Below are positions 7,244-47,018 of a stretch of 64,000 nt of DNA, in pieces. The stretch is from Chelatococcus composti (GTDB lineage: Bacteria > Pseudomonadota > Alphaproteobacteria > Rhizobiales > Beijerinckiaceae). The translations under genes and the position numbers were made by a program. The notes under the pieces were generated by a model. That model was not told where the DNA came from. It saw only the letters and a list, made by a program, of their open reading frames with translations, and did no database searches. Position 1 is the stretch's first letter. Each line of letters opens with the position of its first letter. The stretch spans positions 1 to 64,000 of the forward strand of contig NZ_JACHEH010000003.1 of assembly GCF_014201415.1 (NCBI RefSeq), read 5' to 3'.

Positions 7244-7627
7244 TTGGACCCCGTCTATCTTTTCAAGGTCGCAGCCCGCCAGGCCGACTGGCTCGCGGTC
7301 CGGCAGTCGACGGTCTCGGGCAACATCTCCAACGTCAACACGCCGGGCTACAAGGCGCGGGACGTCGTGCCCTTCGACGAGGTGATGGACAGGACACGCC
7401 TGACCCTCGCCGCCACCAACCCGCGGCACTTCAGCGTCGACGAGGCGGGCGCCAAGACGGCGAAGGTCCGCAAGGGCGACAGCTGGGAAATCGTTCACTC
7501 GGGCAACAGCGTCAGCCTGGAGCAGGAGCTGCTCAAGGCCTCTGAGATCAATCGCGACTATTCGCTGAACACGAACATCGTGCGGTCCTTCCACCGCATG
7601 TACCTGATGAGCGTGAAGGGATCCTGA
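7244..7627 (+). CDS. flgB: Flagellar proximal rod protein FlgB
   Basis: FlgB is a proximal rod subunit just above the MS ring. The 127-residue product has the rod-family N-terminal motif [14 protein letters not shown] and a C-terminal helix. The usual length is about 130 residues. The start is TTG at 7244, supported by AGGAGG at 7231-7236 with good spacing and by the length of the N-terminal helix. The TGA overlaps the flgC ATG by one base, so the two are probably translated together. Confidence 0.95.
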
Positions 7628-27643: not shown

Positions 27644-29737
27644 ATGTCGGACGTGACGATGATTCAGGCGGTGACCGGCGGGCGCAGAGGGCTCGATATC
27701 GGCTTTGCCGTCGGCATTGTCGCCATCCTCACCATCCTCTTCCTGCCTGTTCCGACGATCCTCATCGACATGGGCCTTGCCCTGTCGATCGCCTTCTCCG
27801 TGCTGATCCTCATGGTGGCCTTGTGGATCCACAAGCCGCTGGAGTTCTCGGCCTTTCCCCAGGTGCTGCTCATCGCCACGATGCTGCGCCTGGCGCTGTC
27901 CATCGCCACCACCCGCCTCATTCTCGCCCATGGCAACGAGGGCGTGACGGCCGCCGGCCACATCATCAACGGCTTTTCCCAGTTCGTGATGAGCGGCGAC
28001 TTCGTCATCGGTATCGTCGTCTTTCTCATCCTCATCACGGTCAACTTCCTCGTCATCACCAAGGGTGCGACACGTATCGCGGAGGTGGGCGCTCGCTTTA
28101 CTCTCGACGCCATCCCCGGCAAGCAGATGGCCATCGACGCCGACCTGTCGGCTGGCACCATCGACGAGAAGGAGGCGCAGCGGCGCCGGCGCGAGCTGGA
28201 GGAGGAGAGTGCCTTCTTCGGTTCGATGGACGGTGCCTCGAAGTTCGTGCGCGGAGAGGCGGTGGCGAGCCTCATCATCACCGCCGTCAACATCTTCGGC
28301 GGCATCATCATCGGCGTCACGCGGCACGGCATGTCGCTGTCGCAGGCGGCGGACGTCTTCACCAAGCTGTCGGTCGGTGACGGCCTCGTCTCGCAGATCC
28401 CGGCGCTCATCGTCTCGCTGGCCGCCGGTCTCCTCGTCTCCAAGGGCGGCACGCGCGGCTCCGCGGACCAGGCCGTGCTCGGCCAGCTCGGCGGCTATCC
28501 CAAGGCGCTGTTCGTGGCCGCCGGCCTCATGTTCACGATGGCTGTCGTGCCGGGCCTTCCCTTCCTCCCCTTCGTCGCCCTCGGCGGCCTCATGGGCTTT
28601 GTCGGCTACGCCATTCCCCGGCGCATCGCCGAGCAGGAGGCCCTCGCCGCCGCCCAGGCGAAGGAGAAGGAGAAGGAAGAGCAGGCCAAGCGCGAGGCGC
28701 AGGAGTCGGTCAAGGAGTCTCTCAAGACAGCCGAGATCGAGCTGTGCCTCGGCAAGCAGCTGTCCATGAAGCTGCTCAACGCCCACGGGGAGCTCGCCCA
28801 CCGCGTCGCCAAGATGCGGCGCAAGTTCGCCCAGCAGTACGGCTTTGTCGTGCCCGACATCAAGCTGTCGGATTCACTGGCGCTGCCGGGCAAGACCTAC
28901 CAGATCAAGATCCACGGCACGGTGGTGGCCACGCATGAGATGCGCATCGGCGAGATGCTCGTCGTCACTGGTGACGGCCCGCAACCGGACGTGCCGGGCG
29001 AGGTGACGCGCGAGCCGGCCTTCGGCATCAAGGCCATGTGGGTGGCCGAGACCTATGCCAACGAGGTGCGCCGGCAGGGCTTCACCACCGTCGACAACGT
29101 CTCGGTGCTGCTGACGCACCTGAGCGAGATCATCCGCAACAACCTTGCGCAGCTCCTCTCCTACAAGGACATGCGCGCGCTGCTCGACCGGCTCGATCCG
29201 GAATACAAGCGGCTCATCGACGACATCTGCCCGTCGCAGATCTCCTACTCCGGCCTGCAGGCAGTGTTGAAGCTGCTGCTCGCCGAGGGCGTTTCCATTC
29301 GCAACCTGCATCTCATCCTCGAGGCTATCGCCGAGATCGTGCCGCATGCCCGCCGGTCGGAGCAGGTTGCCGAGCATGTGCGCATGCGCATCGCGCCGCA
29401 GATCTGCGGCGACCTTGCCGAAAACGGCGTGCTCAACGTGCTGCGCCTCGGCAACCGTTGGGACCTCGCCTTCCATCAGAGCCTGAAGCGCGACGCGCGC
29501 GGCGACGTCATCGAGTTCGACATCGACCCGCGCCTCGTCGAGCAATTCGGCAACGAGGCTTCGCAGGTCATCCGCCGCCACCTCAACGAGGGCACCAGCT
29601 TCGTCCTCGTCACCGCGCCCGATGCGCGCCCCTACGTGCGCATGATCATCGAGCGGCTGTTCCCGACCCTGCCGGTGCTCTCGCACGTCGAGATCGCGCG
29701 GGGTATCGAGATCAAGTCCCTCGGAACGATCTCGTGA
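27644..29737 (+). CDS. flhA: Flagellar export gate protein FlhA
   Basis: FlhA forms the nonameric ring of the export gate and binds chaperone-substrate complexes. The 697-residue product has eight N-terminal membrane helices over about 330 residues, including the FHIPEP segment with [22 protein letters not shown] linker rich in Lys and Glu (about 330-355) precedes the large cytoplasmic domain with [19 protein letters not shown]. The length is typical. The stop overlaps the GTG of fliR. Confidence 0.98.
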
Positions 29738-30965: not shown

Positions 30966-31484
30966 ATGGCCATTCAGCCGCCGTCGGATATCGTGCTTGA
31001 GGTGACGCGGGCCGTCGAGCCGTCGCGCTATCAGGCCGCGCTCGAGCGCCTCAAGAACATGCCGGCGAATCAAGCGGGCGTTGATTTCGCCGACACTTTC
31101 GACGCCGTCCGGCGGCCGGTGCTCGGCTCGACGCACGATATCGAGGGCGCGCTCACGGCGATGCGCAGCCGTGCGGCGTCCGTGCGCCCGAGCGAAGGCG
31201 ACCCCTATCGGAAATTCGAGGCCTTCGTTCTCCAGAACTTCATCGAGGCCATGCTGCCGGAAAACGGCGAGGTCGTCTTCGGAACGGGGACGGCCGGCAA
31301 GATCTGGAAATCGATGCTCGCCGAGAAGATGGGCGAGCAGGTGGCTGCGGCTGGGGGCATCGGCATTGCCGAAATGCTGCGCACGTCCACCGAGCGCTCC
31401 CTGAAGGCAAGACAGCAAGTGGCTGACAGCGACGGCAAGGGAGCCTCCCCGATCGGCGGAACAGGTGAGGAGAACAGAGCATGA
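30966..31484 (+). CDS. flgJ: Rod-binding protein (FlgJ N-terminal type)
   Basis: FlgJ caps the rod during assembly. The 172-residue product corresponds only to the N-terminal rod-binding domain. Its key block is KFEAFVLQNFIEAMLPENGEVVFG followed by GKIWKSMLAEKMGEQVAAAGGIGIAEM. The muramidase domain of enteric FlgJ is absent, and a separate lytic transglycosylase is encoded at 6583. The stop overlaps the next gene as ATGA. Confidence 0.85.
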   Translation: MAIQPPSDIVLEVTRAVEPSRYQAALERLKNMPANQAGVDFADTFDAVRRPVLGSTHDIEGALTAMRSRAASVRPSEGDPYRKFEAFVLQNFIEAMLPENGEVVFGTGTAGKIWKSMLAEKMGEQVAAAGGIGIAEMLRTSTERSLKARQQVADSDGKGASPIGGTGEENRA

Positions 31485-31939
31485 CGTTCGATGAAATGAG
31501 CGGGGCAGGAGCAGGCGGCGGCATCGCCGATGCTGCCGGCAGCGAAGGCAGCATCCTTCCCACCGTGGGGCCGCGGCTGTCCGCGACAGGCTCCGCGTTG
31601 CTGCGCGCCATGGATCGGCTGGAGTTCGTTGTCGACGTCGAGACGCGCGCGCTCGAGACACACCACGACATCGACCTTGAGGAGAGCAACCGGCGCAAGA
31701 GCCAGATCCTGCTCGAGCTGAGCCGGCTCATGAAGGTGGTCGACCAGGAGCCCCTCGAGCGCCAGGTCATCGACCGTCTGAGTAGCGTGCGTCAGAAGCT
31801 TGCCCGTAACCAGGCGGTGCTTGAACTCAACCTGCGCGCCATGAACGAGGTCGCCGAGATTGTGGCCGCGTCCATCCGCGCCGAGGAATCTGACGGCACC
31901 TACCAGCCGTCCGGGCACGTCAGGGGGCCCGCGCGATGA
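31481..31939 (+). CDS. FlgN-like coiled-coil flagellar protein
   Basis: This is probably an export chaperone-type protein. The 152-residue product has a disordered Gly-rich N-terminus (about residues 1-35) and then two long helices. These contain RAMDRLEFVVDVETRALETH and LLELSRLMKVVDQEPLERQV, followed by a third helix RQKLARNQAVLELNLRAMNE. This hairpin and the size resemble FlgN, the chaperone of FlgK and FlgL. Similarity is weak, so the function is an inference from shape and from being coupled between the rod-binding gene and a membrane protein by ATGA overlaps on both sides. Confidence 0.6.
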   Translation: MTFDEMSGAGAGGGIADAAGSEGSILPTVGPRLSATGSALLRAMDRLEFVVDVETRALETHHDIDLEESNRRKSQILLELSRLMKVVDQEPLERQVIDRLSSVRQKLARNQAVLELNLRAMNEVAEIVAASIRAEESDGTYQPSGHVRGPAR

Positions 31940-32388
31940 TGCGTTTGCTGCTGACCGGGTTCTGGGTGGCCGCCATCGCCCTGATGTCGAGCTACGCGAC
32001 CGCCTATTGGGTCGCGGGCGGCAATCCGCTCGGTGGGCAGCAGACCTACCTCGAGGGGCTCGAATACAAAAAGCTGCCGACAATGAACGTGCCGGTCATC
32101 ATCGAGGGTGACCTGCAGGGCTACATTGTCACACAGCTCGTCTACACGGCGGATGCGGCGACGCTGCGCGAGATGTCCGTGCCGCCCGATCCCTTCCTGG
32201 TCGACGAGGCTTTCCGCCGCATCTACGCGGAGGACCGCATCGATTTCCGGAACCTTTCGCGGCAAAACCTGACGGAACTGTTGCAGGTGATCAAGGACAG
32301 GACCAACGAAAGACTTGGCAGTCCGATCATCCACGACGTTCTCATCGAGGAAATTAATTACCTGAGAAAAGAGGACATGGGGTCGTGA
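31936..32388 (+). CDS. Single-pass membrane protein, possibly a second FliL-like protein
   Basis: The function is not established. The 150-residue product has one N-terminal membrane helix (about residues 4-24) and a periplasmic domain of about 120 residues. The order of elements resembles FliL: an early strand VPVIIEGDLQGYIVTQLVYT, a helical part RRIYAEDRIDFRNLSRQNL, then LLQVIKDRTNERLG and a final strand IIHDVLIEEINYL. It is coupled to the FlgN-like gene (ATGA). A canonical FliL is present at 12127, so this would be a divergent paralogue if the resemblance holds. Confidence 0.6.
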   Translation: MMRLLLTGFWVAAIALMSSYATAYWVAGGNPLGGQQTYLEGLEYKKLPTMNVPVIIEGDLQGYIVTQLVYTADAATLREMSVPPDPFLVDEAFRRIYAEDRIDFRNLSRQNLTELLQVIKDRTNERLGSPIIHDVLIEEINYLRKEDMGS

Positions 32389-34119: not shown

Positions 34120-34256
34120 TCGGTAGGGGTTGAGAGGCCGGGGGGAAGGCTTCGGCCGGAACGGAACGGGAAGGAGGGATGCGCGGGCCGTTGGCGGCCG
34201 CGATCCCTCCGGCGCCGGGCGGGCGGGCCGCACGGCGGGCTTTGGGAGTTGGGCGC

Positions 34257-37022
34257 ATGGACGATCTGCTTCGGGAGTTTCTGACCGAGACGAACGAGAA
34301 TATCGACGTCGTTGACGTCGAACTCGTGAAGTTCGAGCGGGATCCCAACAACGCTCAGGTTCTCGACAACATCTTTCGCCTCGTCCACACCATCAAGGGA
34401 ACGTGCGGCTTCCTCGGCCTGCCGCGCCTCGGCGCCCTGGCCCATGCCGCAGAAACCCTCATGGGCAAGTTCCGCGAGGGGGCGCCGGTCACGACGGAGG
34501 CGGTCGGTCTCATCCTGCGCACGATCGACCGCGTGAAGGAGCTGTTGGTCGAGCTGGAGACCAACCTCGGCCAGGAGCCGGAAGGCAACGACGACGACCT
34601 CATCGGCCCGCTTGAGGCGCTCGCCCTCGGCTCGCAAGCCCAGCCCGAACCGGAGCCCGAGCCGGAGCCGGCGCCACAGCGCAAGGTTTCCGTCGGCACG
34701 CTGACCCCCCAGGTGCTGGAGCGCGAGCTGCTGCCCGGCGAGGATTCGCTCGACGACATCGAGCGTGCCTTCCGCGAGGCGCAGGCCGAGGTGCCGGTGC
34801 CGAAGCCGGTCGCCAAGCAGGTTCCCGCGGCGCCGGCTGCCGAGGCCAAGACCGAGACGAAGGCGGAAGCCAAGAGCGAGGCCAAGCCCGCCGCCAAGCC
34901 TGCGGCAAAGCCGGGCAAGGCGGGCGAGGCTGACGAAGGGGCCGGCAAGGGCTCGGTGTCCTCGCAGTCGCTGCGCGTCAATGTCGACACGCTCGAGAAG
35001 CTCATGACGATGGTCTCCGAGCTGGTGCTGACGCGCAATCAGCTCATGGAGATTGCCCGCCGCCAGGGCGACACCGAGTTCAAGGTGCCGCTGCAGCGCC
35101 TCTCCAACGTCACGGCCGAGCTGCAGGAAGGCGTCATGAAGACGCGCATGCAGCCCATCGGCAACGCGTGGCAGAAGCTGCCGCGCATCGTGCGCGATCT
35201 CGCCCAGGAGCTGAACAAGCAGATCGACCTGGAGATGGTCGGCGCCGAGACCGAGCTCGACCGGCAGATCCTTGATCTCATCAAGGATCCGCTGACGCAC
35301 ATGGTGCGCAATTCGGCGGACCATGGCCTCGAGTCGACGGAGCAGCGTCGTGCCGCCGGCAAGCCCGAGCGCGGCAAGATCCGCCTCGCCGCCTATCACG
35401 AAGGCGGGCACATCATCATCGAGATCTCGGACGACGGGCGTGGTCTCGACACGGCGCGCATCCGCGCCAAGGCGCTGGAGAACGGACTGGCCACCGAGGC
35501 CGAGCTCGAGAAGATGAGCGAGGCCCAGATCCACAAGTTCATCTTCCACGCCGGCTTCTCGACTGCCGCCAAGGTCACGAGCGTGTCGGGCCGCGGTGTC
35601 GGCATGGACGTGGTGCGCAACAACATCGAGATTATCGGCGGCACGATCGACGTGCGCTCCGTGCCCGGGCGCGGCACCACCTTCGTCATCAAGATCCCGC
35701 TCACGCTCGCCATCGTCTCGGCGCTGATCGTCGAGGCGGCGGGCGACCGCTTCGCCATCCCGCAGCTGGCGGTGATGGAGCTGGTGCGCGTGCACCACAA
35801 GTCGGGCCACCGCATCGAGCGGATCAAGAACACGCCGGTGCTGCGGCTGCGGAACAAGCTGCTGCCGGTCGTACCGCTCGCGGAGCTGCTCGGCACGGCT
35901 GAGCCCGGCAGCGCCGTCAACGAGACGGAGCAGGGCGAGCAGGGCTTCATCGTCGTCATGCAGGTCGGCAACCAGACCTTCGGCATCGTGGTGGACGCGG
36001 TCTTCCACACCGAGGAAATCGTGGTGAAGCCGATGTCGTCGCTGCTGCGGCACCTGTCGATATTCTCGGGCAATACGATCCTTGGTGACGGCAGCGTCAT
36101 CATGATCATCGACCCGAACGGCATCGCCCAGGCAGTGGCGCATTCCTCGACACTCAGCTCCAGCGACTCCAGCGCGGCCGACGCCGAGCGGGCGTCCGGC
36201 AAGGGCAACGCGGTGGCGCTGTTGCTCTTCCGCGCCGGCGGGCCGGAGCCCAAGGCGGTGCCGCTGTCGCTCGTCACTCGCCTCGAGGAGCTGCCGGTGG
36301 AGAAGATCGAGCGCGCGACGGGTCGGCCGGTCGTCCAGTACCGCGGCACGCTCATGCCGCTCGTGCCGGTCAACGATCGCGTCGAACAGCGCGAGAGCGG
36401 CACGCAGCCGGTGCTCGTGTTCTCGGATTCCGGCCGCTCCGTGGGCCTCATGGTCGACGAGATCATCGACATCGTCGAGGAGCAGTTCGAGATCACTCTC
36501 GCGTCGGATGTGCCGGGCATCCTCGGCTCGGGCGTCGTGCGCGGCCAGACGACGGAGATCATCGACATTGCCCATTACCTGCCGATGGGCTTCAAGGACT
36601 GGTTCCACCGTCGCGCGCAGCAGGGCGAGCCGCAGCGGCGCAGCCTGTTGCTGGTCGATGACAGCGCCTTCTTCCGCAACATGATCGGGCCGGCGCTCAA
36701 GGCCGCCGGCTACGACGTGACGCTGTGCGACTCGGCCGTCACCGCCCTGCAGCTCATCGAGGGCGGCGCCATGTTCGACGTGGTCGTCACCGACATCGAG
36801 ATGCCGCACATGGACGGCTTCGAGTTCGCCAGCCGTCTGCGCAGTGATCCGCGGCTGGAGGGGCTGCCGATCATCGCTCTTTCCGGCCTGTGCACACCCG
36901 AGGCGATTGAGCGGGGCCGTTCCGTCGGCTTCTCCGATTACATCGCCAAGTTCGACAAGCCCGGCCTTCTCGAGGCGCTCAAGGAGTTCGCCGGGGTCCA
37001 ACAGGAGGTGGCAGCAGCATGA
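34257..37022 (+). CDS. cheA: Chemotaxis histidine kinase CheA fused to a receiver domain
   Basis: CheA phosphorylates CheY and CheB under receptor control. The 921-residue product has an HPt domain with phospho-accepting His44 (in LVHTIKGTCGFLG), then an acidic Pro/Ala/Lys-rich linker (about 115-230). A dimerization helix follows (TLEKLMTMVSELVLTRNQLM), then an ATPase domain (MVRNSADHGLES as N-box, SDDGRGLD, SGRGVGMDVV) and two CheW-like regions. A C-terminal receiver runs from about 794 to 921 with phospho-accepting Asp846. ATG 34257 is chosen because GGGAG precedes it and the protein begins like other CheA proteins. The stop overlaps cheW. Confidence 0.96.
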   Translation: MDDLLREFLTETNENIDVVDVELVKFERDPNNAQVLDNIFRLVHTIKGTCGFLGLPRLGALAHAAETLMGKFREGAPVTTEAVGLILRTIDRVKELLVELETNLGQEPEGNDDDLIGPLEALALGSQAQPEPEPEPEPAPQRKVSVGTLTPQVLERELLPGEDSLDDIERAFREAQAEVPVPKPVAKQVPAAPAAEAKTETKAEAKSEAKPAAKPAAKPGKAGEADEGAGKGSVSSQSLRVNVDTLEKLMTMVSELVLTRNQLMEIARRQGDTEFKVPLQRLSNVTAELQEGVMKTRMQPIGNAWQKLPRIVRDLAQELNKQIDLEMVGAETELDRQILDLIKDPLTHMVRNSADHGLESTEQRRAAGKPERGKIRLAAYHEGGHIIIEISDDGRGLDTARIRAKALENGLATEAELEKMSEAQIHKFIFHAGFSTAAKVTSVSGRGVGMDVVRNNIEIIGGTIDVRSVPGRGTTFVIKIPLTLAIVSALIVEAAGDRFAIPQLAVMELVRVHHKSGHRIERIKNTPVLRLRNKLLPVVPLAELLGTAEPGSAVNETEQGEQGFIVVMQVGNQTFGIVVDAVFHTEEIVVKPMSSLLRHLSIFSGNTILGDGSVIMIIDPNGIAQAVAHSSTLSSSDSSAADAERASGKGNAVALLLFRAGGPEPKAVPLSLVTRLEELPVEKIERATGRPVVQYRGTLMPLVPVNDRVEQRESGTQPVLVFSDSGRSVGLMVDEIIDIVEEQFEITLASDVPGILGSGVVRGQTTEIIDIAHYLPMGFKDWFHRRAQQGEPQRRSLLLVDDSAFFRNMIGPALKAAGYDVTLCDSAVTALQLIEGGAMFDVVVTDIEMPHMDGFEFASRLRSDPRLEGLPIIALSGLCTPEAIERGRSVGFSDYIAKFDKPGLLEALKEFAGVQQEVAAA

Positions 37023-37495
37023 CCAAGCCGACCGAGGCGGCGGGCAAGTCCGCCGACACCGTCCAGTATGTCACCGTGCGCATCGCCGGGCAGCTCTTCG
37101 GCCTGCCCATCCTGTCCGTGCACGACGTTTTCATGCCCGAGCGCACGACGCGCGTGCCGCGTGCGCCGCGCGCGGTGGAGGGCGTGCTCAACCTGCGCGG
37201 ACGCATCGTGACGACGATCAACATGCGCCGGCTGCTGGACTTCCCCGATGCGACGGACATCGTGCAGCCGATGGCCGTGGGCATCGACTACAAGGGCGAG
37301 TCCTACGGTCTCATCATCGACACGGTCGGCGAGGTTCTGGCGCTCGACAGTTCGACGCGCGAGCCGAACCCGATGAATCTCGATCCGCGCTGGGCCCAGG
37401 TGGCTGACGGCATCCATAGGCTCGACAACGAGCTGATGGTGATCCTCGACGTCGAGCGTGTCCTGTCCCTGCGACAGGGGGCGATGGCGGCCTGA
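37019..37495 (+). CDS. cheW: Chemotaxis adaptor CheW
   Basis: CheW links receptors to CheA. The 158-residue product has YVTVRIAGQLFGLPILSVHD, the conserved APRAVEGVLNLRGRIVTTIN block and a C-terminal DNELMVILDVERVL. It starts in the cheA stop codon (ATGA), giving coupled production of kinase and adaptor. Confidence 0.97.
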   Translation: MTKPTEAAGKSADTVQYVTVRIAGQLFGLPILSVHDVFMPERTTRVPRAPRAVEGVLNLRGRIVTTINMRRLLDFPDATDIVQPMAVGIDYKGESYGLIIDTVGEVLALDSSTREPNPMNLDPRWAQVADGIHRLDNELMVILDVERVLSLRQGAMAA

Positions 37496-37535: not shown

Positions 37536-37937
37536 ATGAAAACGTGTCTGGTGGTCGATGATTCCCCCTTCATCCGGAAGGTGGCGCGCAAGATCCTCGA
37601 GGAACTGTCCTTCGAGGTGAGCGAGGCAGGCAACGGGCAGGAGGCGCTCGACCACTGCATGTCCTTCATGCCGGATGCCATCCTGCTCGACTGGAACATG
37701 CCGGTCCTCGACGGCCCACAGTTCCTGGAGGCGGTGCGCGCCATGGAGGGCGGCAACCGCCCCAAGATCGTGTTCTGCACCACGGAGAACGATCCGGGCC
37801 ATATCGCGCGGGCGCTCATCGCGGGGGCCGACGAGTACATCATGAAGCCCTTCGACCGTGAGATCCTGACCTTCAAGTTCCAAGAGGTCGGCCTTATCGA
37901 GGCTGAGGCTCTCGCTGACGCTGGAAAGCCGCTTTAA
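37536..37937 (+). CDS. cheY: Chemotaxis response regulator CheY
   Basis: CheY is a single-domain response regulator that binds the motor switch. The 133-residue product keeps the acidic pair Asp8-Asp9, the phospho-accepting Asp52 in LLDWNMPVLDG, a Thr in FCTTEND and the Lys in YIMKPF. A short C-terminal tail (AEALADAGKPL) is extra. The gap to cheW is 40 bases; the last base overlaps the cheB ATG. Confidence 0.94.
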   Translation: MKTCLVVDDSPFIRKVARKILEELSFEVSEAGNGQEALDHCMSFMPDAILLDWNMPVLDGPQFLEAVRAMEGGNRPKIVFCTTENDPGHIARALIAGADEYIMKPFDREILTFKFQEVGLIEAEALADAGKPL

Positions 37938-39099
37938 TGACCAATGTCACGGGAGCCGCTCCGGCGGGTGACCAGATCCGCGTCATGATCGTGGACGACT
38001 CGGCGGTCGTGCGCGGGCTCGTCTCGCGCTGGCTCGAGGAAGAGCACGACTTCGCCGTCGTCGCCACGCACCGGCATGGCCGCCTCGCGGCGCAGGACAT
38101 GACCCACTCCCGCCCGGACGTGGTCATTCTCGACATCGAGATGCCGGAGATGGACGGGCTCACGGCCCTGCCTCTCCTCCTCAAGGCCAAGCCCGACACC
38201 GTCGTGCTCGTCGCCTCCACGCTGTCCCAGCGCGGGGCGGAGACGAGCCTCAGGGCGCTGGCGCTCGGCGCGGCCGACTATGTGCCGAAGCCCGACCCGA
38301 CGGGCCGCCTCGCCACTTCGGCTGACTTCCGCCGCGAGCTCGTGGAGAAGGTGCGCCACCTTGGGCAGCGGGTGCGCGCCCGTTCCGCCGCGGGCCAGCG
38401 CCTTCCGCTTGAAGCATCGGCCCCGAAGCCGGCGGCACCTGTGGCTGCTGCTCCGGCACCCCAGTCGCGGCCGCATGCGTCGCGGGGCGTGGAAAAGCTG
38501 AGGCCCTACTCCAGCGTGCCGGCGCGTGTCCTCTGCATCGGCAGCTCCACCGGCGGGCCGCAGGCGCTGATGCAGTTCCTGCAGGGGGCCGGCCCGGCGC
38601 TGGCGCGGCTGCCCATCCTCATCGTCCAGCACATGCCACCGACCTTCACAACCATTCTCGCCCAGCATCTCGGCCGTGCCGCGAAGCGGGAGGCTGCTGA
38701 GGGCGTCGATGGCGAGCCGCTGGTGGCCGGGCGCATCTATGTGGCGCCGGGCGGCCGGCACATGCTCGTCGAGAAGGTCGGCGACAAGCCCGTCATCCGT
38801 CTCTCGGACGCGCCACCGGTGCATTTCTGCCGGCCGGCGGTGGACCCGATGTTCGAGTCCGTCGCCCACGTCTTCGGCGCGGCGACGCTCGGCGTCATCC
38901 TGACGGGCATGGGCAGCGATGGTGCCAGGGGTGCGCTCGCCATTGCCGAAGCGGGCGGCAGCGTCATCGCGCAGAACGAGGCCACGAGCGTCGTGTGGGG
39001 GATGCCGGGCGCGGCCTTGGCCGCCGGTGCCTGTGCGGCCGTGCTCCCCATCGAGGAAATCGGGCCTAAGGTCAGCCAGCTGATCGTCGGGGGGAAGGC

Positions 39100-39103
<4 letters not shown>
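37937..39103 (+). CDS. cheB: Chemotaxis methylesterase CheB
   Basis: CheB removes methyl groups from receptors when phosphorylated. The 388-residue product has an N-terminal receiver with the aspartate in VVILDIEMPEMDG, a Pro/Ala-rich linker (about 150-185), and a C-terminal esterase. The catalytic serine is in IGSSTGGPQALM, the histidine in VQHMPPTFT and the aspartate in GMGSDGARG. The stop overlaps the cheR start (ATGA). Confidence 0.97.
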
Positions 39104-39930
<827 letters not shown>

Positions 39931-40023
39931 GGGTTGCTGGATGAGAGTCGTTGGCCTGCCTCCTCCCCCTTTCTCGTTCCCGCCCGGGGCCGCGATGCGC
40001 CGCGGCTTCCGGGATAAGTGCGC

Positions 40024-41373
40024 ATGGTAGGAATGATGTCCGAATCGGTTGACTATCTGAACGAGCGTCTAGCCTTCTACAAAATCGATGCTGCCATGCG
40101 CGGCGAGCTCAAGGTTGCCTGGGAGCTTCTCAAACCGCACATGCCGCGCGTTATTGCCGATTTCTACCGCCACGTCGGGAAGTTCCCGTCGATGGCGAGG
40201 CTCGTCGGCGACCATCAGGAGAGGCTGTCCAAGGCCCAGGCAGTTCATTGGCAGCGGCTATTCAACTCGGGATTCGATGCTGGCTATCTCGAGAGCGTGC
40301 GGGCCGTTGCGAGGGCGCACGTGCGCGTGGGCATCGAGCCGGATTGGTACATCGGCGGCTACAACGTCATCCTCGCCGATCTGACGGCTGCGCTCGTGAA
40401 GGAAACGCGGCTGCGTCCGGGCCGCCTGACGCGGCTCATCAATGCCGTCAACGGCGCGGTCATGTTCGACATGGGCATTGCCGTCTCTGTCTATCACGAG
40501 ACGCTGCTGGCGGCCGGCGAGCAGCGCCGCAAGCGCCTGGCGGGCGAGATCGACGTTTTCGACCACACTTTCTCCGACAGCCTTGCGGCGCTCAATAAGG
40601 CGGCGCACGTCATGCGTGGCGCCTCCGAGCAGCTCGGCGAGGCAACGAGCCGCACGACCAAGCAGGCCGACAGCATGACGAAGACGGCCGAGGAAATGGC
40701 CGGGCGGGCTGCCCGCAGCGCCGCCGCGGCGGGCTCGATGGCGAAGTCCATCGAGACGGTCGAGAATTACGCCGAGCGCGCTTACGAGATTGCCGGCAAG
40801 GCTGCTGAGCAGGCCAAGGCCGCCGATGCCGGCGTGCGCGGCCTCGCCGAGGTGACCGAGCGCATCGGCTCCATCGTGGAACTCATCGGCGGCATCGCGC
40901 GGCAGACGAACCTTCTCGCGCTCAACGCCACCATCGAGGCAGCACGTGCGGGCGAGGCAGGGCTTGGCTTCGCCGTGGTGGCGCGTGAGGTCAAGACGTT
41001 GTCAATGCAAACGGCCAAGGCGACCCAGGAGATCGCCGACCAGATCGCTGCGATCCAGCAGGCCACGCGCGCGACCGTCAGCGATCTCGACGGCATCGGT
41101 GCGGTCATCAGTGAGGTCGTCCAGGCCGCCGAGGCAATCACCGCGGCGGTGGAGAACCAGGCTGCCGCGACGCATTCGATCCTCACTGCGGTCGAGGAGA
41201 TATCGCAGGACGCGCAGGGCGTGGCTGATGCGGTGGCCACGGTGCGCGCCGCTGCGCAGGACATCGGAGGCATCGTCACCACCGTCCAGACGCTCGCGTC
41301 CTCGCTCGACGAGCAGGCGGCGAACATGAACGGCGACGTGCGCCGGTTCTTTGATCGCGTGGCCGCGGCGTGA
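40024..41373 (+). CDS. Cytoplasmic chemoreceptor with globin-coupled sensor domain
   Basis: This is a soluble receptor likely to sense oxygen or another haem ligand, like HemAT. The product has no membrane helix. Its N-terminal 165 residues form a protoglobin-type domain with [19 protein letters not shown], and a candidate proximal haem histidine lies in [19 protein letters not shown]. The rest is a methyl-accepting coiled coil with the hairpin [20 protein letters not shown]. The start is uncertain: GTG 40018 and ATGs at 40033 and 40036 are alternatives. The stop overlaps the GTG of the heparinase-like gene, an unusual partner for a chemoreceptor. Confidence 0.88.
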
Positions 41374-44273
41374 GCGGCGACGACGAACAACCTGATGAGA
41401 AGAAGGGGGCGCGACACGTGCGGCCCGGTCTCGAAGCTCTGTTGAAGCCCGGTCTGACGAAGGCGTCGGACCGGGTGAAGCCGTTTCAGCCGCCGCGCCT
41501 TTCGGTGGTTCAGGGGAAGAAGCGGACACAGCCGGCGAAGGCCGTCGCTGGCCGAACTGCCCCCATCCCGCCGCTTTCGGACGACGGTGCGCCTGCGGCA
41601 CAGGAGGGCGCCGGGCGGGGGCTTCCGGCGGCTGCACGGCCGAGCGCGGAATCCGCCGAACGTACCGGCCACGTCGTGGAGGCACGCAACCGGCGTGCGC
41701 GGGCCCAGTTCTCATTCGGCGCCGTGCCGGCCGGCCGGTGGTGCGAGCTGTCGTTCGCCATCACCTGGGCCGAGGAGGAGAAGGCCGTCGGCGTGCCGGA
41801 TGCGGTGCGGCTCGGCTTCGACTTCCTGACGGCTGACGGCGTGAGCCTCGACCTACCGGTCGTGCCGGGGCTGATGCGCGGGCGCATCGACCCGTTCGTG
41901 ATCGACCTGGCCGGCCCTGTCGCCCCGGGGCACAAGGTCTCCCGGGTGCGTGTCGCCTTCTGGCTGCCGGGCCATGCCGAACGGGTGGAGCTGTCGGTGC
42001 GCAGCTGGCGCAACACGGCGCCGTTCGAGGTGTCGGCGCCCCGGTTGCAGCTTCTGCCCCAGCCAGCTGGGGAGACGGCGGACCCGCCCGGTATGCAGCT
42101 TCTCGATGCAGAGCCGCGCTGGGAGACCTGGGGTGTCGTGCCGGGCGTTGCGCTCACGTTGCGCGGCCAGCTCCTGTGCGCTTCGCCGGCGCCGGACATG
42201 GCCTTCGTGCGTATCGTTTACCGCGACGAAAAGGGCCGTGCCTTGCCGCGCCCCTACGAGGGCACGCTCGAGGCGGAGGGCGTCGGCGCCTTCATTATGC
42301 TTCCGACGGACCGGCGCGCACGGCGCTTCACGCTGCGCCTCGTTCCGCCCGCCGGTGCCAGCTTGGTCGAGATCGGTTTCCAGGCGCGCGGGCGGGCGCA
42401 GATCTGGCGCTGCCTGCCCTATGAGGTCGCGCTCGACGAGCAGGGCTCCGCAGCGGCTGAAGGCGAGCCGCTGGCGGCGCTCGGGCATCTGGCCGAGCGC
42501 TTCGGCATCGCCGAGCGCGACGCGCGCGGGCTGCTCGCCTCCTTCGTCGATGAAACGGCCCTTGCTTCAGCGCCTCTCGTCCAGACCGATCTCGGCGCCT
42601 GGCTCGCCGGCGGCATGGGCGCGGCGGCCGACGGGCGCCTGAGGCTTGCCGGGCGCGAGGAATGGCTCCTTCCGGAAGTCCTCGACTGGCAGGAAGATCC
42701 CTTTGCCTGCGGCCTGTGGCGTGCCCGCTATCACGCGCTCGGCTGGCTGCTCTCGCTCGTGGGGGACGGCGAGCGCAAGAACCTTTCCCAGGCTGTAGCC
42801 CTCGCCCTGTCGTGGGATGCGGCCTTTCCGCGTGCGGACATAGACGACGAGGATCGCTTCAGTCCGCGCACGGCCGCGATCCGTCTCGAGGTGCTGGTGC
42901 AGCTCCTCTCGCGGTCGCTCTCGGCCGGCTTGCCGGCCGGCAGGAGCGTCGCGCTGCTCGCCGCCATCGTGCGGCATGCGCGGTTCTTCGCCGAGGCCCT
43001 GGGCGACAATCTCATCGGCGAGGCGCGCGAGCGGCTGCATGCTGCGGCCGCGCTCGCCACCGCCGCCGCGGCGTTGCCCCGCTTGCCGCTCGCACCCCTG
43101 TGGCGTTTGCTGGCCCTCAATCACATCGACTGGTCGGTGACGCAGCTTTTCGACGAGGCGGCGATGCCGAGCGAGGGCTCGTCGCACCTTCATTTCGAGG
43201 CGCTCGCCGTCGCTCTGGCGGTGCAGGGTGTCCTCGCCGCCCTGCCGGGCACGGAGGGTCTGCGTCGGCGGCTGGCGATGCCGCTCGGTCGGGCCATTGC
43301 CACGAGCGTGGCGCTGACGGACCCTGACGGCTGCCTCGTCCCCTTCGGCGAGACGACGGGCGGGGCGGAGCACCTGCCCATCCTGCGGGATCTCATCGCC
43401 CGCTGCGGCCGCGACGTGATGTCCGAGCCGGCGGTGGCCGAGATGCTGGCCGCGCGGGCCTCCGCCCCGATCGTGCTCGACAGGCAGGCCGGGATCGTGA
43501 CGGCGCGCCACAAGGACGCCAGCGACTGGGCCTATTTCGCCGCGCGCTTCGGAGCGAGCTGCGGCCGCGGGCACGACGACTGCGGCTCCTTCGTCTATGC
43601 CGCGAAGGGCATCCGCTGGGTCGCCGATCCGGGCGGGATCGCCGTCCGCGACGCCGGTGCGCCGGGCCGCCACTTCCGCAGCGGCGCTGCCCACAACATT
43701 CTCAGGCCGGTCGATGCGGCAAGCGTCGGTGGCTGCGGCTGGCTTGTCGCAGACATCGCTCTCGAGGGGGCAAGAGCGCTCCTCGTCGACAGCAACGCAC
43801 ACGGAACGTCCCATCGCCATCGCCGGCTCTTCCTGCTGCTCGACGACCTCTCGGGCATTGCCGTATTCGATCGCCTGGCCAGCCCCGAGACCGACGCGGA
43901 GGTTGTCGCCGAGGGCTTCCTGCATCTCGGGCCGGGCGTTGCCGGCGTGCTGGTGACGGCCGGGGTCGGCCTCGCCCTTGCCGGCAACAGCCGGTTGCAG
44001 ATCGTCGCACAGGTCCGCGAAGGTTCACTGAAGGGCCTGTCCTTCGTTTGCGGACAGGAGGATGGCGCGGGCGGTGCGCTGGGCTTTCTCTCCGGCGCCT
44101 GCGGAGAAAAAGAGCCGGCTAATGTTCTTCGCTATTCGGTCGCAGGCAAGGGGGAGGTGATCGCCGGCCTGCTGATGGCCACGGATGATGCCGCTCGTCG
44201 GCGGCTGGCCGCGGGCCTCGACGATCCCCGCCTCATGCTGCCGTTCCGGATGCCTTTTGAGGCCACACAATGA
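41370..44273 (+). CDS. Large heparinase II/III-like protein coupled to a chemoreceptor gene
   Basis: This is a predicted polysaccharide lyase-fold protein. The 967-residue product has a basic, disordered N-terminus of about 105 residues without a signal peptide. Two beta-rich parts follow (about 105-345), then a helical toroid-like region (about 360-680). The C-terminal beta domain has the heparinase II/III pattern [21 protein letters not shown] and, further on, RSGAAHNIL. In the toroid the usual EGS..YHR-like site reads EGSSHLHF, so a catalytic Tyr may be missing. The GTG start overlaps the receptor stop, and the stop overlaps the lipoprotein start. Substrate and location are unknown. Confidence 0.7.
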
Positions 44274-44989
44274 AGAAGACGCGCGAATTCACCTCCTCGA
44301 GCGCGGAAGCGGGCCGCGTTGCCCGTGCGCCGATGCGGGGGCTTGGCCGCAGCGCGGGACCGCTTCTCGGGCTCGTCTTTCTCGCCGGCTGTCAGTCAGG
44401 CGAGTTCAACAGCTGCGAGCGTTACTACACCAGTCCCTGGAACCCGCCGGTGCGGTGCTATCGGCCGCCGCCGCCCTCCGTCGAGGTCGTGGTGGAGAAC
44501 GTCGTCGTGGCGCCGGCCGCTCCCGCGCGCCCGCGGGCGAGGGCCGTGCGGGAAGAGCCGATGCCGCCTGTTACGGTGGAGCCTCCGCGGCCGCAGCCGG
44601 CCTCTCCGCCTCCTCCCCGGGTGGTGCCTGCCGCTCCCGCCCCGCTGCCGGCGCCGAAGGTGGTCAAGGGCTACGATCCGCCGCCCCAGTCTCGTCAGGT
44701 GAAGCCGCTGCCCCAGCGGTCCCAGCTTTCGGGCCGGTGGCGCGTGACCGAGGCGGGCGGCAAGGCCTGCGAGCTGGTGCTGACCAATGCCGGGCTCCTC
44801 GACCAGTACCGCGCGTCGACGAGCGGCTGCACCAGCGAGGCGCTGCGGAGCATCAACGGCTGGGACCTCAAGGGGGGCGATGTGGTGCTCTATGCACGCG
44901 GCGCGATGGTCGTCCGCCTCGTGGAGGACGGCGGTAGGTACCGCGGCGTCGAGCTCAGCTCGGGGATGCCGGTCACGCTGGCGCGCTGA
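44270..44989 (+). CDS. Proline-rich lipoprotein with C-terminal Inh/Omp19-type domain
   Basis: This is a predicted outer-membrane or periplasmic lipoprotein. The 239-residue product has a long N-terminal region before the lipobox FLAGC (Cys at about residue 41), then a Pro/Val/Ala-rich linker (about 60-150). The C-terminal domain of about 85 residues reads SGRWRVTEAGGKACELVL...INGWDLKGGDVVLYA. That pattern matches the protease-inhibitor Inh/Omp19 fold of Brucella and Pseudomonas proteins. Coupled to the heparinase-like gene by an ATGA overlap. A role in guarding against proteases is possible but not shown. Confidence 0.75.
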   Translation: MKKTREFTSSSAEAGRVARAPMRGLGRSAGPLLGLVFLAGCQSGEFNSCERYYTSPWNPPVRCYRPPPPSVEVVVENVVVAPAAPARPRARAVREEPMPPVTVEPPRPQPASPPPPRVVPAAPAPLPAPKVVKGYDPPPQSRQVKPLPQRSQLSGRWRVTEAGGKACELVLTNAGLLDQYRASTSGCTSEALRSINGWDLKGGDVVLYARGAMVVRLVEDGGRYRGVELSSGMPVTLAR

Positions 44990-45007
44990 GCCGACCTACA
45001 GCTTCGC

Positions 45008-45019
45008 GCAAGGCTCCGC
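45008..45019 (+). promoter_or_regulatory. Candidate GCAAG-type box upstream of the Cache chemoreceptor
   Basis: GCAAGGCTCCGC lies in the 295-base gap between the Inh/Omp19-type lipoprotein and the next chemoreceptor, resembling the words before motA and flgB. Apart from this box I see no gene, terminator or repeat in 44990-45284. Confidence 0.25.
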
Positions 45020-45284
45020 TCCTAGGGTGCCGGCGGTGTTTGGTGGGAAATTGTGTTCCCTCGATTCCGGCGGGTTCTGCTGCGCTCGGCCCAGCCGGAG
45101 AAGTGCCGGCGGCGTCCGCTCTGCGGCACCGCCATGTGGCGTCTATTCCGATACGCGATCGAGCAGGCTGCCCGGCCAATGGCAGCCTGATCGGCGAGGC
45201 AACGCCGCCGACCGGCAACGGGGCGGCATGAAATGAAGGGCGACCGGCTGGCGAGAGCCGGTCTGCGATTGCGGGGTGGCTGGC

Positions 45285-47018
45285 ATGGAAACTGCCAAGG
45301 TTCGAAACGGATTCGGTCGCATTCTAGAAAAGATCGGCCTCAGGACGATCGGTGCGCGGCTCGCGTCGGTCGTCGTACTCTTTGCGGTCAGCATCGCTGC
45401 GGTTGTGGCCATCCTTGCATCGATGGAGGCGGCCTCGATCCGCGAGGCTCGCGTGGAGATGCTCAAGTCGGTGACGGGCGTCGTCATCAAGGCCATCGAC
45501 CAGCAGTTCCAGGAAACCGCGAAGGGCCTCATCGGCGAGGGCTGGGCGCAGCAGCGTGCGCGCGCCGTGGTTCGCGCCATGCGCTACAATGGCGACGAAT
45601 ACTTCTTCATCATCGACGATGAGGGCAACGAGATCGTCAACGGCGGTCACCCGGCCCTCGAGGGCAAGAACCTCATGGACGCCAAGGACGCCAACGGCGT
45701 GGCGTACGTGAAGGAAATGCTCGCCATCAGCAAGGAGAAGGGCTCCGGCTATATCTCCTACAGCTTCCCGCGCGCGGGCGATGACATGTCGCAGGCGGTG
45801 CCCAAGCTCGCCTATGTCGAGCGCTTCGGGCCCTGGAACTGGACCGTCGGCACCTCGCTTTACACCGACGACGTGACGGCGCGCATCCGGGAAGCGTCGC
45901 TCATGGCGGCTGGTGTCGGCTTCGTGTTTTTCCTCCTCATCGGCGGGCTCGCTCTCGTCGTCGCGCGCAAACTGGCGCGTCGCCTGCAGGGTCTGCGCGA
46001 CGTGATGCTGCGTCTTGCCGAGGGTGACAGCAATGTCGAGGTGCCGCCCGCCCTTGGCCGCGATGAGATTGACGAGATGACGGGTGCCGTCGAGGTCTTC
46101 CGCGAGAATGCCATCGAACGGGAGCGTCTCGCCGCCCAGCAGGAGGCCGAGCAGCGCGCCAAGGAAGAGCGTGCGCGCACCATCGAGGCCCTGGTCAACA
46201 AGTTCGAGGCCGAGGCGATGGGCGTTGCCCGGGCCGTGGCTACCGCCGCTGCTCAGCTGCAGCAGAACGCCAACGCCATGAACTCCGCCGCCGAGGAGAC
46301 CAGCCGCCAGTCGACGACGGTGGCCGCCGCTGCGGAGCAGGCGACGAGCAACGTCAACACTGTCGCTTCGGCGGCCGAGGAGCTCACGGCCTCCATCCGT
46401 GAGATCGGGCAGCAGGTCACGACCGCGGCCCGTGTTGCGAGCGCGGCGAACGGCCAGACGAAGCAGGCCGCGGACGTGGTGCGCAGCCTTGCCACCAGCG
46501 CCCAGCGCATCGGCGAGGTGGTGAGCCTCATCACGGACATCGCCTCGCAGACGAGCCTCCTCGCCCTCAACGCCACCATCGAGGCGGCGCGGGCTGGCGA
46601 GGCGGGTCGCGGCTTTGCCGTCGTCGCCACCGAGGTCAAGAACCTCGCCGAGCAGACCGCCAAGGCGACGGACGACATCTCGGCTCAGATTGCCGCTGTC
46701 CAGAACGCCACCAACGACGTCGTGGCGGCCATCGACAGCATCACGGAGACGATCCGCCAGATCGACGAGGTTTCGACCACGATCGCCTCGGCCGTGGACC
46801 AGCAGGGTGCGACCACCAACGAGATCGCCCGCAACGTCTCGCAGGCCGCCCAGGGCACGCAGGAGGTGTCCTCGAACATCGCCGGCGTCAGCCGCGCGGC
46901 GGCCGAGACGGGCGTCGTCTCGAGCCAGATCGTCGAGGCGGCCAACGACCTCGTGCGCCAGTCCGACATCTTGCGCCAGCAGGTGGACGAGTTCCTCGCC
47001 CAGGTGAAGGCTGCCTGA
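45285..47018 (+). CDS. Methyl-accepting chemotaxis protein with single Cache domain
   Basis: This is a membrane chemoreceptor for a small molecule. The 577-residue product has membrane helices at about residues 23-45 and 205-228. The periplasmic single Cache domain between them has [20 protein letters not shown] and [16 protein letters not shown], typical of sCache_2. A HAMP domain and a signalling coiled coil with [20 protein letters not shown] follow. Two sCache_2 hallmarks are clear, but the ligand cannot be read from sequence. ATG 45285 is chosen over an in-frame GTG at 45276. A hairpin terminator follows. Confidence 0.93.

Follow-up and report, generated by a model that had tools for sequence, protein, structure and literature searches.

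The window analysed here is a stretch of 64,000 nucleotides from Chelatococcus composti (contig NZ_JACHEH010000003.1, positions 1 to 64,000). The gene of main interest encodes a heparinase-III-fold protein of 967 amino acids (41370-44273, plus strand, GTG start), which is called Hep below. Hep is the middle member of three genes on the plus strand. It is preceded by a soluble chemoreceptor of 449 amino acids (40024-41373), composed of a protoglobin domain and a methyl-accepting chemotaxis protein (MCP) domain, and is followed by an Inh/Omp19-like lipoprotein of 239 amino acids (44270-44989), in which residues 38-41 form a lipobox-like LAGC motif recognised by eye. The TGA stop codon of the receptor (41371-41373) shares four bases, GTGA, with the start of Hep at 41370, and the TGA stop codon of Hep (44271-44273) overlaps in the same way, as ATGA, with the ATG of the lipoprotein at 44270.

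An earlier, preliminary description of this stretch had given the three reading frames and both overlaps with exact coordinates, and its naming of the products agrees with Pfam. The receptor matches Protoglobin (1.7e-34) and MCPsignal (3.4e-27), and thus has both the sensor and the signalling domain of a globin-coupled chemoreceptor. The lipoprotein matches Inh, PF02974, with 53.7 bits. The match of Hep to the C-terminal heparinase II/III family, PF07940, is marginal (23.7 bits, just below the cut-off of 24).

The three genes are the tail of a longer run on the same strand, consisting of CheA (34179-37022), CheW (37019-37495), CheY (37536-37937), CheB (37937-39103) and CheR (39100-39930). The receptor begins 93 bases past CheR. 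CheR is supported by its Pfam family (8.3e-60), and the other four owe their names to sequence reading and to their conservation at related loci. A second chemoreceptor with an sCache-HAMP-MCP arrangement (45276-47018, plus strand) follows the trio after a gap of 286 bases. A scan of positions 39800-45400 for promoters found none; the same interval has 8 terminator-like matches compared to a shuffle mean of 2.5, from which no inference is drawn.

A flagellar gene cluster occupies roughly the part of the window between 7 and 30 kb. It includes, on the plus strand, FlgB (7244-7627) and FlhA (27644-29737), the latter being the marker for the co-occurrence counts given below. FlgB, FlgC, FlhA, and the FlgL-type, FlgJ-type and FlaF proteins were checked against families; the remaining flagellar names rest on reading and position.

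Conservation of the trio in Chelatococcus

The order CheA-CheW-CheY-CheB-CheR-receptor-Hep-Inh-sCache MCP, including both overlaps, is conserved in two other species, Chelatococcus sambhunathii and C. caeni. These are also the closest named records to the window (75% and 77%, respectively), but, being taken as the same genomes as the two trio-bearing relatives, they were not counted as further evidence. Purifying selection acts on each of the three genes (pairwise dN/dS 0.10-0.19, 0.22-0.24 and 0.30-0.38). The overlaps are therefore not a matter of chance, because they recur in both species and each of the genes is maintained.

The trio is kept in three of the four genomes of the genus that were searched. 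In the fourth, G003, CheA-CheW-CheY-CheB-CheR are present at 51-71% identity, the trio with Hep is missing and FlhA is only 47% identical. The motility locus of G003 (L029, G003:C32:35000-51000; FlhA 47%, CheA 57-60%) belongs to a different flagellar system; the assignment of this genome to the genus, or else a possible exchange of its entire motility locus, is of interest here.

The receptor has the Protoglobin and MCP signalling domains in common with globin-coupled chemoreceptors of the HemAT type. It differs from them in being positioned behind che genes and in overlapping a gene with a heparinase fold, an arrangement seen only in Chelatococcus. Inh-like proteins are common in relatives, where they were found in 20 of 41 genomes. 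A different contig of the window's own genome encodes a second Inh-like protein (G000:C6:191350-191997), which is 35% identical to the che-linked copy. The profiles of Inh and Hep have nothing in common.

Distribution and genomic surroundings of Hep

Genome searches of the kind used here are a fast first look, in which distant relatives can be missed. A scan of genome contigs with the single Hep sequence returned no relatives, although profiles later found many, and this result reflects a failure of sensitivity and not absence. Of 397 genomes searched in the family, 70 have a match to the Hep profile (E<=1e-3). Three of these matches (G334, G349 and G404) are short, weak and partial and are not counted, which leaves 67 genomes, distributed over three genera. 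When the order was sampled evenly, with few genomes drawn from Hep-bearing genera, Hep was found in 4 of 397 genomes, all of the same family. Among 385 genomes sampled from the class, 2 had a match, namely the window's own genome and, as a partial match, G1051.

A scan of named genomes produced 83 related stretches, corresponding to 79 distinct loci, which were fetched by Hep alone. They comprise 2 loci of Chelatococcus, 31 of Microvirga, 38 of Methylobacterium, 6 of Methylorubrum and 2 of unclassified bins. In a tree calculated by a quick method, Chelatococcus, Microvirga, and Methylobacterium together with Methylorubrum form separate groups, in keeping with vertical descent.

Flagellar or chemotaxis genes are found at all 79 loci, across several genera. 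The nearest such gene is within 1 kb of Hep in 64 loci, within 3 kb in 76 and never further than 4.3 kb. This strict count omits the receptor, Inh and the uncharacterised genes of the cluster; when they are included, the first two figures become 74 and 77. Flagellar genes proper are present at 77 loci, whereas two (L090 and L111) have che genes only; some of the CheY and CheA matches near Hep may be other response regulators. The orthologue of FlgB lies upstream of Hep on the opposite strand in 66 of the 79 loci, and within 2.5 kb in 48. A clustering of reading frames around Hep failed to return Hep for 5 of 13 listed loci (L071, L072, L075, L133 and L140) and was not used for any count.

The preliminary description had seen in the three genes an oxygen-linked sensor-effector unit and had proposed a search for their adjacency across genomes. 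Hep turned out to be far more widespread than the trio. Receptor, Hep and Inh occur together in 2 of the 79 loci, both of Chelatococcus, so the operon does not extend across genera. Neither a protoglobin domain nor an Inh gene was found near Hep in any of the 77 loci outside Chelatococcus (E<=0.05, flanks of up to 10 kb, shorter at contig ends); what is constant there is the presence of flagellar and chemotaxis genes. Separation of the three genes in relatives, which had been named as evidence against a unit, is thus real at the level of genera but does not hold within Chelatococcus.

Two conserved proteins encoded at 31936-32388 and 31481-31939 of the window recur in 37 of the 79 loci each. 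Neither matches a family in Pfam or NCBIfam (E<=1e-3), and both appear as uncharacterised parts of the flagellar cluster.

Co-occurrence with one of two flagellar systems

Every one of the 111 Methylobacterium-genus genomes has a match to FlhA (E<=1e-100). Among the matches listed there are two kinds of FlhA, one about 75-80% identical to that of the window (70 genomes) and the other about 45-47% identical. Hep is present in 71 of the 111 genomes. When the two proteins are compared, again among the matches listed, 68 genomes have both Hep and the window-type FlhA, 3 have only Hep, 2 have only this FlhA and 38 have neither.

The few genomes that depart from the pattern were inspected individually. 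In G1159, which was scored as having only Hep, the locus is decayed (L179, G1159:C1:2964000-2983900): Hep is spread over two frames, and FlhA and FlgB are remnants. In G1214 (Hep only; L178, G1214:C1:2082000-2101900) Hep is in about five pieces, the genes from FliP to FlgB look whole, and the single FlhA match, 64% over 289 residues, fits neither kind clearly. The third, G1194, is a bin that is 70% complete, yet it carries a piece of window-type FlhA at 86%, outside the matches listed above, and for this reason is not a true exception. On the other side, G1172 has only FlhA; its assembly is fragmented and FlhA is likewise in pieces. Several further split Hep matches fall on different or broken contigs.

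A survey of lateral and subpolar flagellar systems in Rhizobiales (PMC6406911) describes, in the part consulted, a subpolar system in Methylobacterium, with a lateral one in addition in some species, and only a lateral system in Chelatococcus. The same split is seen in the Methylobacterium and Chelatococcus genomes analysed here. Because the distribution of FlhA matches that survey, as far as its consulted part goes, we infer that the flagellar system of the window is of the lateral type. The word 'heparinase' is absent from the main text of the survey, figures excepted.

The open-access literature was also searched. No paper was found that joins a heparinase to a flagellar gene cluster. Heparinase combined with flagellar, glycosylation or motility terms led only to work on Pseudomonas adhesion, and heparinase combined with lateral flagella only to a Paenibacillus genome. 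Nothing was found for Microvirga with heparinase, and the papers on Methylobacterium with flagellin glycosylation or heparinase deal, in their available parts, with other subjects only.

Fold and conserved residues of Hep

The structure of Hep was predicted by AlphaFold2 with 30 sequences (predicted local distance difference test, pLDDT, 79; predicted template modelling score, pTM, 0.83). A model made with three sequences had a pLDDT of 41 and was set aside. Residues 1-81 and more are predicted to be disordered. They are followed by two β-sandwiches (residues ~100-230 and ~248-355), an α toroid (~365-700) and another β-sandwich (~700-950), the limits being taken from the secondary structure of the model. 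The succession of an α toroid and a β-sandwich is the architecture of the heparinase II/III superfamily.

Several lines of evidence establish that Hep is related to heparinase II/III proteins. PF07940 is matched by all 30 Hep members (best 1.1e-15) and PF16889 by 13 of them (best 8.5e-9), both at E<=0.1. The best Foldseek matches of the model are heparinase III structures of polysaccharide lyase family 12 (PL12), with 3.3e-16. The toroid and the C-terminal sandwich align with these enzymes over 541-546 residues: the superposition with 4mmi, which like 4mmh is from Pedobacter heparinus, has a Z of 28.8 and a root mean square deviation (rmsd) of 6.8 over 546 residues, and that with 4fnv a Z of 27.8 and an rmsd of 3.7 over 541 residues. 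The similarity at the amino acid level is low. Neither one nor three Hep sequences found a sequence match in the Protein Data Bank and 30 sequences found five weak ones, among them 4mmh (E 0.0012); the structural relatives are 14-16% identical.

Hep differs from PL12 heparinase III in its two additional N-terminal sandwiches, in its flagellar surroundings and in lacking a signal-peptide-like stretch. A simple hydropathy scan, with provisional start codons, found a hydrophobic N-terminal stretch of this kind in none of the 30 members. A likeness of a part of the model to tandem CBM22 domains (4xup; Foldseek E 2.6e-5 to 9.9e-5, TM 0.09-0.26) is too weak to claim. Residues 1-90 (41370-41640) are a mostly disordered extension, which is present in three Chelatococcus proteins and is not found in two aligned Methylobacterium proteins. 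Special conservation of this extension was considered and rejected, since changing and silent differences in codons 14-44 are about equal (5/5, 6/4 and 3/4).

The catalytic and metal residues of the lyase relatives were taken from Table 4 of PMC12088678, the part of that paper used here, and were mapped onto Hep through HMMER alignments and not superposed coordinates. The last metal ligand, H775, was assigned by motif. The residues Tyr294, His424 and Asn240 of PL12 heparinase III are mostly replaced, and those of the PL35 enzyme GAGase II (8khv; Tyr246, His401 and Asn192) are not kept as a set. The 79 members contain the aligned Asn in no case, the Tyr in 13 and the His in 22, and thus do not have the residue set of the active PL12 and PL35 enzymes. 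The window protein has R553, L607 and R733 at the Asn, Tyr and His positions.

The putative metal site has a different fate. His403, Asp405 and Asp421 of GAGase II align with H735, D737 and D753 of Hep. H735 is present in 79 of 79 members, D737 in 76, an acidic residue at position 753 in 79 (Asp in 34, Glu in 45) and H775 in 79. As judged from the alignments, Hep has largely lost the catalytic set of the lyases and has kept the residues of the metal site. In Chelatococcus and Methylobacterium, at least, it is unlikely to be an eliminating lyase of the classical kind. Two other polar residues are widespread, N547 (69 of 79) and H606 (61 of 79). They could form a different active site, and N547 may be the catalytic Asn displaced by six residues.

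Function of Hep and alternative explanations

The linkage of Hep to flagellar and chemotaxis genes, together with its co-occurrence with one kind of FlhA in the Methylobacterium genus, leads us to regard Hep as accessory to the lateral-type flagellar system in Chelatococcus, Microvirga and Methylobacterium/Methylorubrum. It would act in the cytoplasm, where its probable task is to bind or modify a glycan of the flagellum (probability about 0.6). Glycosylation of bacterial flagellin is generally cytoplasmic. For this reason, and because the fold is one that handles carbohydrates, a glycan role during assembly in the cytoplasm is the most plausible. Hep would form a metal-stabilised cradle, made of the toroid and the extra sandwiches, that binds or modifies a glycan, and its client would be a flagellar subunit that is glycosylated, with flagellin that has yet to be exported as the likeliest candidate. 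In Chelatococcus the gene would have come to sit behind the chemotaxis genes and the globin receptor, with the Inh lipoprotein after it, and a shared operon would then provide co-expression and not a dedicated circuit from oxygen to glycan. A more specific version is offered only tentatively. In it, a polysaccharide-lyase fold has been recruited as a dedicated flagellar part, a cytoplasmic, metal-stabilised and glycan-handling factor by which glycosylated lateral-flagellum subunits would be prepared or checked, and which in Chelatococcus would have been placed under the chemotaxis operon.

Several observations weigh against assigning Hep to the flagellar system in this way. The Fisher p of 1e-23 for its co-occurrence with FlhA is inflated, because related species are not independent. 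The finished genome G1189 has an intact flagellar cluster and no match to Hep in the 39.8 kb that were read. G472, also finished, has the window-type FlhA and a Hep split across two frames, so that broken copies are not limited to genomes without this system. Genera in which Hep was not found can likewise have a window-type FlhA (68-76%; G008, G012, G016, G022, G006, G019 and G020), which means that the system runs without Hep; Hep is a lineage-restricted accessory and not a core part. In both Chelatococcus loci che genes separate Hep from the closest flagellar gene proper, which lies at a distance of 9.9 kb. No glycosyltransferase gene turned up beside Hep, although no search was aimed at them. 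Finally, Tyr and His are kept jointly in 5 of the 79 members, all from Microvirga, which leaves room for catalysis in part of the family.

These five proteins, the frequency of N547 and H606 and the retained metal-site residues would all suit an active cytoplasmic lyase or epimerase of the uronate type, which would use rearranged residues, for example N547 and H606, on a sugar polymer or oligosaccharide. The uronate epimerase 6hzn belongs to the fold family (Z 20.2). The scarcity of the catalytic residues at the aligned positions, where the Asn is absent throughout, speaks against such an enzyme, and we consider it rather doubtful. It is also conceivable that Hep is a passenger at the boundary of the flagellar cluster, inherited along with it and devoid of a flagellar role. 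Hep is often on the opposite strand to its neighbours and is missing from many lateral systems, and G472 has kept its flagellar system with a broken Hep. However, the flagellar and chemotaxis surroundings persist across several gene arrangements, including the che run of Chelatococcus, Hep is broken in G1159 where FlhA and FlgB are remnants, and it is under purifying selection in Chelatococcus. Simple inheritance of this kind is improbable.

The proposal of the preliminary description, that receptor, Hep and lipoprotein make up one oxygen-linked system working on an extracellular or flagellar glycan, draws on the conserved overlaps and order in Chelatococcus and on the selection that maintains all three genes. 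It is nevertheless very unlikely, since the partners are missing near Hep in other genera, Hep has no signal-peptide-like stretch and Inh-like proteins occur in 17 of 41 genomes where the search found no Hep. The suggestion of a flagellar glycan, made in the same proposal, is the part that best fits the new evidence; the link to oxygen is not supported.

Significance for lateral flagella

With Hep regarded as an accessory of the lateral-type system, there are about a hundred species in which a 'heparinase'-like protein is linked to one of two flagellar systems. This figure combines 71 Methylobacterium-genus genomes, 3 Chelatococcus genomes and 38 genomes from another genus, which is presumably Microvirga. 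In Hep, a lyase fold appears to have been largely stripped of its catalytic set while retaining the residues of the metal site. It would also provide a testable entry, through a single gene, to the making or decoration of lateral flagella in these bacteria.

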